Notes under the pieces: model-generated | Databases searched by the model: none | What the model was told of the DNA's origin: nothing | The model's input: the letters and a program-made list of their open reading frames with translations, nothing else | Shown: in pieces, positions 62,143 to 64,000 of the stretch | Position numbering within the stretch: the first letter of the stretch is position 1 | How the letters are laid out: each line of letters begins with the position of its first letter | Assembly (NCBI GenBank): GCA_017630395.1 | Contig: JAGBVI010000034.1 | Location: 1 to 64,000 of the forward strand | DNA from: Paludibacteraceae bacterium | GTDB taxonomy: Bacteria > Bacteroidota > Bacteroidia > Bacteroidales > Paludibacteraceae | Direction of reading: 5' to 3' | DNA length: 64,000 bases | Translations under genes and position numbers: made by a program

Positions 62143-62172
62143 CAAAAATAGACAATATTTTTTGATTCACAA
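62143..62172 (-). promoter_or_regulatory. Promoter of rpsU
   Basis: The complement reads TTG (62170-62172), a 19-base spacer and TATTTTTG (62143-62150), giving a leader of about 45 nt rich in A. Confidence 0.7.
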
Positions 62173-62209: not shown

Positions 62210-62944
62210 TTAACATTTTTCCTTCTTTTTCTCTAATCGTCCTGCCGTGGTTGCTCCGGCTCTTTCTGCTCCTTGATAGAATCGCTCCCCCTCTTGGGTT
62301 GCCGTCTGAAAGGCTTCTGCCAACTCTTCTGCAGAGATGCCTCCCGCACTCATTCTCTCTTTCAATTGAGCAATGCTTTCTCCCGTCTTTCTGCTGATGA
62401 CCTCCAACGGGTTGAACCCTGCATTAATCATCTGCATCAGATCCTGTCCCATCAATTTTCCGGATGCAGTGGCTTGCGAAAATGCCAATGCCAACGATTT
62501 CATCGTCTCTTTGTCTCCCAAGGCTATATCTCCGATGTTCTTCAACTTTTGAAAAGCAAAGTCGGCATCCAACCCAAACGACATCATTGTTTTTTGTGCT
62601 TCCAAAAGAGAAGTACGGTCGTATGGGGTGGCAGAACCGTAGCGGGTTATGCTTTCGGAAAGGCGTTCTGCCGCCTCTGCATTGCCATTGAGCAAGGTAA
62701 GCAAATTGGTTTGCTGCTTCTCAAACTCCAATCCAGCTCCTGCCAAGCTCTGAAATACAGAGGAGACATTGCCAGCAAGTTCAAAGGATTGATTGACCAA
62801 TATTAATCTTTCTGATATACGACTTATAAGACTTTCTGTTTTTTTTGCTTCTCCTCTGACCTCTTCAAATTGATTGGCTATGTTTGTTAAGGAGACAATA
62901 GCATTCCCTCCTATATTAATTTGAAAATCTACATCATTATTCAT
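62210..62944 (-). pseudogene. Truncated phage tape-measure protein
   Basis: The 244-aa frame is the N-terminal domain of a tail tape-measure protein: KKTESLISRISERLILVNQSFE, TNLLTLLNGNAEAAERLSESI, YGSATPYDRTSLLEAQKTMMSFG, ASGKLMGQDLMQMINAGFNPL. Full-length proteins run for many hundreds of residues; this ends abruptly at RLEKKKEKC. ATG 62944 is preferred over an upstream TTG. It is a prophage relic with no holin, portal or capsid genes nearby. Confidence 0.8.
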
Positions 62945-63011
62945 AACCAAATATTTGCATTTTAAATTTTAATTTTATACCTTGCTTTCGTTAACTTAAA
63001 GAATTACAATT

Positions 63012-63200
63012 ATGGAAACGCTGATTAATATATTTTTCCTGTTTATGGATTTTTTAACATGGTTGCTTCATCAAGGAACTTGGGGAGTGATTGCATCCTT
63101 GGTGATAATGCTTTCACTATTTTGCCTTGGTGTTTATTTTTGGTATTGTATTGCCAAGTGGAGTTCCACCGGAAGATCATTGTGGTGGTTTAAAGATTAG
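63012..63200 (+). CDS. Small membrane protein (uncertain)
   Basis: A 62-aa frame rich in aromatic residues: two hydrophobic segments (about 5-20 and 24-46) and a short basic tail (CIAKWSSTGRSLWWFKD). ATG at 63012 follows an AT-rich stretch without Shine-Dalgarno. It lies antisense between two phage relics on the minus strand. It could be a real small phage or host membrane protein; there is no independent support. Confidence 0.35.
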   Translation: METLINIFFLFMDFLTWLLHQGTWGVIASLVIMLSLFCLGVYFWYCIAKWSSTGRSLWWFKD

Positions 63201-63207
63201 ATTCTTC

Positions 63208-63455
63208 CTATCCTTTCCCAGCCTCCATTTTCCTGATATGCTTCAATTGGGCAAATTTCTCTGCCCACTCTTCATCTGTAAGTTTTGCAGGGTCCAAGTG
63301 GAGGTAGTATTCCAAAAGGGTATTGATAAACCCTACCCAATTGGAATGCACATCACCCTCCGCCCTGCTTACAAGTTTTTTACTTCCACCTGTTTTACCT
63401 TCACCAGTTGTTCCACCACACCTGCCGCTCCCAATAGATAGTTACGATTACGACC
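63208..63455 (-). pseudogene. Truncated phage tail-assembly chaperone with -1 frameshift site
   Basis: The minus strand reads GRNRNYLLGAAGVVEQLVK, then VKQVEVKNL and a stop. The slippery heptamer A_AAA_AAC lies in the last codons. A -1 shift continues as LVSRAEGDVHSNWVGFINTL, then EYYLHLDPAKLTDEEWAEKF and so on to a stop at 63208. This layout, immediately upstream of a tape-measure gene, matches the lambda gpG/gpGT type. The 5' end is missing (stop before 63455), so it is a relic. Confidence 0.6.
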
Positions 63456-63528
63456 TCTGCCCTATCTTACAAACAAAGATATTTACAAAGATATATTTAC
63501 AACTGAGTCACAGCACAGCCGGAAATAC

Positions 63529-63628
63529 AAAAAAAATGGTCGGAATAAATCCAACCATTTCCTCGGTGCGAACGCCCAAAGTGCTATGCTAAGGGAAAGT
63601 TGCGCCGACAGCCCATTTAAGGGACACG
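63529..63628 (-). ncRNA. Tandem small-RNA gene, copy 1
   Basis: A minus-strand unit of about 100 nt. The promoter is TTG (complement of 63661-63663), 19 bases, then TATATTTG (63634-63641). The transcript contains a stem CGG-GC-AAC/GTT-GC-CCG around an inner CCC/GGG hairpin, then the intrinsic terminator TGGTTGGA/TCCGACCA (63537-63557) with eight T. It is about 85 percent identical to copy 2 over the structured part. The family is not recognised. Confidence 0.55.
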
Positions 63629-63633
63629 CTTAA

Positions 63634-63663
63634 CAAATATACAACAAATAATTGAAGTAACAA
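63634..63663 (-). promoter_or_regulatory. Promoter of small-RNA copy 1
   Basis: TTG-N19-TATATTTG on the minus strand. Confidence 0.65.
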
Positions 63664-63757
63664 AAAATGGTCGGAACAAATCCAACCATTTCCTCGGTGC
63701 GAACGCCCAAAGTGCTACGCTAAGGGAAGTTGCGCCGATCCGCTCATTTAAGAGACT
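63662..63757 (-). ncRNA. Tandem small-RNA gene, copy 2
   Basis: A second copy, offset by 131 bases. The promoter is TTG (complement of 63791-63793), 20 bases, then TACTTTTG (63763-63770). The structured core CGGCGCAAC...GTTCGCACCG and terminator are conserved, while the first 20 nt differ. Its terminator T tract supplies the -33 TTG of copy 1. Confidence 0.55.
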
Positions 63758-63762
63758 TATTG

Positions 63763-63793
63763 CAAAAGTATAGGAAATAATTGAAATAAGCAA
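63763..63793 (-). promoter_or_regulatory. Promoter of small-RNA copy 2
   Basis: TTG-N20-TACTTTTG on the minus strand. Confidence 0.6.
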
Positions 63794-63870
63794 TTATCAA
63801 GTGTTTAAAACAAAAAAATAAAAATTCCGGAATACAGTTAGTTGGGGGTGCTTAAACCTTGTTAATGTTC

Positions 63871-63878
63871 TATATTTG
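63871..63878 (+). promoter_or_regulatory. Possible promoter near window end
   Basis: TATATTTG on the plus strand, followed by an inverted repeat GTGTGT/ACACAC (63882-63887 and 63914-63919) and two CCTTGTTAA-like direct repeats (about 63858 and 63932). No ORF begins before the window ends, so what it drives is not known. Confidence 0.35.
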
Positions 63879-64000
63879 CAGGTGTGTAAATAGTACCAAA
63901 TTCATTTAAATTAACACACTGAAAAACTAGCCCTTGTTAACATAGGCATCGAAGAGACATCCCTATTTATGTGCGTAAAGAACCAAAAGGGAATGCGAAT

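Follow-up and report, generated by a model that had tools for sequence, protein, structure and literature searches.

Closely related small RNA (sRNA) genes arranged in tandem have been described before: excerpts of one publication (PMC4211561) present PrrF1 and PrrF2 of Pseudomonas aeruginosa as near-identical tandem sRNAs with predicted Rho-independent terminators, OmrA and OmrB of Escherichia coli as tandem siblings of 82-88 nt with shared and divergent parts, and AbcR1 and AbcR2 as a further near-identical tandem pair. According to passages of another (PMC7366714), intergenic sRNAs of Bacteroides thetaiotaomicron, such as GibS, have a transcription start site and an intrinsic terminator; the word 'tandem' does not occur in the text of that paper, and our literature search returned nothing on tandem or sibling Bacteroides sRNAs or on rumen Bacteroidales sRNAs. 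Here we analyze a 131-nt unit present as two direct head-to-tail copies, A and B, at 63529-63793 on the minus strand of a Bacteroidales contig (JAGBVI010000034.1 of a Paludibacteraceae bacterium; its first 64,000 nucleotides are termed the window). We propose that the copies are probably sibling genes for small regulatory RNAs acting in trans. Judged as genes at the sequence level, the two are closely related and stand in tandem, each with its own promoter and intrinsic terminator.

Repeat analysis aligned 67 nt of the two copies at 97% identity with a spacing of 131 nt and detected a further 27-nt repeat upstream at 78%. With copy B as the query, blastn recovered copy A (93% identity) but no further site anywhere in the 3.57-Mb genome (E <= 1). 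From 5′ to 3′, each unit comprises a shared short T-rich upstream element, a TTG-N19/20-TAnnTTTG motif, a short 5′ hairpin (GUCYC UUAAAU GRGC), a linker, a central hairpin (UCGG.GCAAC..CCC..AG loop CU..GGG.GUU.GC.CCGA) and a terminator, formed by a 13-bp hairpin and a T run that can be read directly as six T in copy A (63662-63667) and eight T in copy B (63529-63536). The copies differ chiefly in the 5′ hairpin and the linker. In G006, another genome of the same genus, both copies occur in the same order, adjoining the same PorP gene as in the genome that carries the window (G000). A covariance model, R1, which was built from these same copies, scores copy A at 120.5 bits in both genomes and copy B at 102.9 bits. 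The features are as follows.

63763-63793, minus strand: copy A promoter, TTG-N20-TACTTTTG (pattern search; 0/37 differences between G000 and G006 over 63757-63793).
63662-63756, minus strand: copy A RNA gene of about 95 nt with 5′, central and terminator hairpins, its 5′ end placed from the promoter position (fold and covariance model; 2/95 substitutions between G000 and G006).
63662-63693, minus strand: copy A intrinsic terminator, a 13-bp stem and six T (sequence and fold; absent from the terminator scan list).
63634-63663, minus strand: copy B promoter, TTG-N19-TATATTTG (pattern search; 0/36 differences over 63626-63661).
63531-63625, minus strand: copy B RNA gene with the same architecture as copy A (fold and covariance model; 0/95 substitutions between G000 and G006).
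63529-63564, minus strand: copy B intrinsic terminator with eight T (terminator scan and sequence).

Conservation is what lifts the pair beyond chance. Across the 263-nt block, G000 and G006 differ by two substitutions and one change in T-run length. The adjoining intergenic DNA carries 45 substitutions over 381 aligned bases together with eight indels (Fisher p = 5e-9 for 2/263 versus 45/381), the other flank of the block has five substitutions and one indel in 50 bases, and 45 of the 283 4-fold codon sites differ (17/109 in PorP and 28/174 in the OmpA-domain gene). Identity between the genomes reaches 99.2% for the RNA pair, versus 95.9% and 95.0% for the two neighbouring protein genes. The low divergence of the block relative to intergenic DNA and 4-fold sites points to strong constraint, and the promoters and RNAs of both copies appear to have been under strong purifying selection ever since G000 and G006 diverged; if one of the genomes had recently had its entire block replaced, similarly low divergence could also result. 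Across the genomes, the closest sequence pairs are A with A and B with B, which indicates that the duplication predates the split and that the copies have not been recently homogenised.

TTG-N19-TAnnTTTG occurs 10 times in the window versus 1.72 expected from shuffles (none of 100 shuffles reaches 10), and its N20 counterpart five times versus 2.09 expected (7/100 shuffles reach five). Since about 1.7-2.1 occurrences per spacing are expected in 64 kb, the motif by itself is not rare in the window, and its weight rests on its placement within each unit. Both unit promoters fit the Bacteroides consensus excerpted in PMC7366714 (TTTG around -33 and TAnnTTTG at -7), apart from a -33 element that reads TTG and not TTTG. 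TAnnTTTG is kept in each copy despite -7 regions that differ between the copies.

Folded separately, copies A and B adopt the same predicted shape with a z score of about -3.0 each, and only 2/200 and 1/200 shuffles fold as well as the real RNAs. Our model-fitted alignment, A6, holds four rows (three distinct sequences) and 31 pairs in 96 columns, 34 of which are unpaired; all 93 cells of the 31 pairs are paired. Eight columns vary. Two of them form a compensatory U-A to C-G pair in the 5′ hairpin, where copy A has CUC/GAG and copy B has CCC/GGG, and the six uncompensated ones all fall in unpaired columns (chance 0.0015; 0.022 for at least six of all eight being unpaired). The initial annotation, made from the letters of the window, had described tandem minus-strand copies with their own promoters and terminators (six and eight T) whose differences mostly spare paired positions; the sequence, pattern searches, folds and conservation in G006 bear this out. 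It had also suggested comparing compensatory changes in the AAC/GTT and CCC/GGG pairs of the central hairpin, which are uninformative because they belong to the 30 pairs that never vary.

The presence of a promoter, a compact fold, a terminator and strong constraint in both copies makes trans-acting sRNA genes probable. Each unit would be transcribed from its own primary-sigma-type promoter and end at its own intrinsic terminator, so that two RNAs of some 95-100 nt, both highly structured, would result. Other transcripts may be their targets in trans, most likely via base pairing with a putative seed in the conserved, partly open central-hairpin loop (UUAGCRUAGCACUUU) and/or in the divergent 5′ arm; the loop is the likeliest seed. 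Their roles would overlap and would not involve Hfq. No Hfq match was found in the 16/16 genus genomes searched, with the control search positive in 5/14 control genomes, so that pairing, if it occurs, would rely on a different helper or proceed unaided.

Several observations weigh against this interpretation. The distribution is very narrow, with the pair in 2/16 genus genomes (all distribution counts given here include the own genome). Covariation is limited to a single pair drawn from three distinct sequences, and 179/500 shuffles equal it; given this non-significant control and the placement of changes in unpaired columns, the fold is backed by energy and by the location of the changes, and hardly by covariation. 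Of the two terminators, the terminator scan picked up only that of copy B; the one in copy A probably escaped because its six T are drawn into the stem. Finally, the target search on the loop complement gave nothing clearly above control: an 18-nt complement with up to three mismatches matched four sites (two being the RNA genes themselves) versus nine for the reversed control, and a 15-nt wobble pattern matched four sites in G000 and seven in G006 (two self matches in each) versus three and two for the control, with a slight excess in G006 once self matches are removed (five versus two). The sole complementary site found common to both genomes (L111/L114) falls within a frame of more than 300 residues, some 220 residues from its start, and was taken as chance, and an orthologue of another site, L113, was absent among the five G006 loci compared.

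The narrow distribution was seen with each search tool. Model R1 matched the two genus genomes plus two weak matches, both terminators; two of 300 family genomes plus three weak matches (strict filters; a sample of a larger group); and, of the 393 genomes in the order sample, the own genome alone, besides one terminator match. By eye, the model matches L063, L064, L065 and L105 are unrelated terminator hairpins, and L117 (E 0.40) resembles a tRNA with a terminator behind it. A core model lacking the terminator, R2, gave 2/40 plus two matches at E 0.16 and 0.31 (L120 and L121), which by eye have no hairpin-plus-T-run and were taken as chance. Among 101 relatives, blastn yielded full matches in two and 22-24-nt matches in two more (L004 and L005), the latter to the terminator end, without a hairpin at the site; in the phylum sample it detected the own genome only among 395. 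An exact 21-mer search of genome contigs returned one record. In viral contigs, a core 17-mer had three GC-rich matches with, by eye, no similarity past the 17-mer, and a second pattern had none. The matches in a phage collection (13 records, 31-36 query bases each, best E 0.08) and a plasmid collection (one record, 26 bases, E 0.2) were unconvincing.

In 14 other genomes of the genus, the 450 nt that follow the best PorP showed no sign of the pair, a weak synteny check as the corresponding span in G000 ends at the copy A promoter; the whole-genome R1 search covers what it leaves. Inspection by eye of the 450 nt ahead of rpsU in the remaining genus genomes likewise revealed no such RNA. An Rfam 15 scan of the window at the gathering cutoff gave five matches, all tRNA, and a permissive scan of 63200-64000 (E up to 10) gave eight sub-threshold matches (best E 1.6), none of them relevant, so the covariance-model check advised in the initial annotation yielded no family. 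Thus the pair appears restricted to one lineage, and the wider RNA gene family envisaged in that annotation is unsupported beyond two closely related genomes. The pair is seemingly either young or, elsewhere, too diverged for detection.

The main alternative, which we consider unlikely, is that the RNAs bind or sequester a protein in the manner of a decoy instead of pairing with messenger RNA. 6S RNA, a decoy of RNA polymerase, is a long hairpin with an open central bubble. By eye, the fold described here has no large open central bubble, and 6S is not among the eight sub-threshold Rfam matches in 63200-64000 at E up to 10. The long structured hairpin, the conservation of stems as strong as that of loops and the lack of an Hfq match in the genus would nevertheless suit a protein partner; excerpts of PMC7366714 likewise describe Bacteroides as having no obvious Hfq and ProQ homologues. 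A related and rather unlikely scheme is that of a clade-specific, duplicated rigid RNA that would act through its central hairpin, without Hfq, on a protein or a shared target; if true, sRNAs of Bacteroidales would have a new mode of action.

We regard it as distinctly unlikely that the copies form a pair of cis-acting leaders or attenuators, serving as regulated terminators ahead of a downstream minus-strand gene, either rpsU or formerly another. If the phage DNA now lying between them was a simple insertion, the copies would once have preceded rpsU at close range in the same orientation, and a 10-codon ATG frame precedes the central loop in each RNA (MSGSAQLPLA and MGCRRNFPLA). However, these short peptides differ between copies and, in copy A, also between genomes (L to P), the second copy has a separate promoter, and the block is still conserved with phage relic DNA intervening (about 1.2 kb in G000, 0.5 kb in G006). 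Furthermore, rpsU possesses its own promoter-like element, TTG-N19-TATTTTTG, at 62143-62172 on the minus strand, and such an element lies within 150 nt of rpsU in 15/15 further genus loci (drawn from G006 and 13 additional members of the genus, G005 contributing two loci), which argues against a leader role.

On the lower-coordinate side, the pair is followed by a phage tail relic and then by rpsU, a XerC-type recombinase gene, hpf, tRNAs and tuf (XerC, hpf and tuf being names that we assigned from the translations); PorP/SprF and the OmpA-domain protein are encoded on the higher-coordinate side. The relic (62210-63434) comprises a truncated tape-measure protein of 246 aa (Pfam TMP_3, E 2e-19) and a small upstream frame. 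Its 62232-63434 segment shares 91.7% identity with viral contig L068, in which the tape-measure frame spans 553 aa and further open frames, but not the RNAs, lie upstream. Model R1 detected RNA copies in 0/33 viral loci encoding tape-measure relatives. As the RNAs lie outside the phage similarity and none was found in viral relatives, the pair is evidently not part of the phage tail module. It is therefore very improbable that the copies are a phage-derived or mobile scar left along with the relic. Such an origin would fit their narrow distribution and their position about 95 bp from the end of phage similarity in G000, and closer in G006, but it is countered by the L068 and viral-locus results, by the lack of a third genomic copy, and by the strong constraint and intact promoters. 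Nor were there dispersed copies in the genome or terminal inverted repeats around the unit, as for a miniature inverted-repeat transposable element or insertion sequence end; the sole inverted pair in 62500-64000 (16 nt, 81%; 62839-62854 versus the copy B T run) does not flank the unit. The initial annotation had placed the copies next to a prophage relic and preferred RNA genes to a mobile scar; its placement is correct, and its preference is probably so.

That annotation had also stated that no open reading frame explains the copies, and we agree. We found no conserved frame in the pair among RNA-strand frames of at least 8 codons: the 10-codon peptides vary as described above, copy B has a 12-codon GTG frame on the RNA strand, and frames across the terminator are disrupted in G006 by the T-run length change. 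On the plus strand, an 89-aa frame (63323-63592) starts within DNA missing from G006. A small hydrophobic peptide gene starting at an ATG in the terminator stem, such as the copy B frame MVGFIPTIFFVFPAVL, is hardly credible, because this frame crosses the terminator and is broken in G006 by that same length change.

Two further observations concern the relic. About 777 bp of G000 (62704-63480, compared with L012:2646) are missing in G006, a gap that opens within the tape-measure gene and closes shortly before the RNA pair. At 63012-63200 on the plus strand, a 62-aa frame, hydrophobic by eye and antisense to the tail genes, has no Pfam match; the viral relative has a frame of equal length, 62 aa, in its place (L068:1428-1616, minus strand).

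The two RNAs are more conserved than the two compared neighbouring protein genes, yet belong to no Rfam family, and they are clear candidate sibling sRNAs in a genus whose genomes gave no Hfq match. The strong conservation of each copy makes the pair well suited to asking why duplicate sRNAs are retained in bacteria. Like PrrF1/PrrF2, as portrayed in the excerpts of PMC4211561, the locus holds two near-identical tandem sRNA genes with predicted terminators, here known from sequence; unlike them, it belongs to a different phylum, and Rfam scans found no homology. Its likeness to OmrA/OmrB, in the same excerpts, lies in tandem siblings with shared and divergent parts. The pair described here shares the 3′ two thirds and diverges in the 5′ arm, and homology to OmrA/OmrB was not found; moreover, OmrA/OmrB bind Hfq, for which this genus gave no match. 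With the GibS-type sRNAs excerpted from PMC7366714, it has in common the phylum and an intrinsic terminator, a likeness drawn from their description. In the light of these comparisons, the pair would represent an ordinary, already known kind of gene, of which it appears to be a new and well-supported example.
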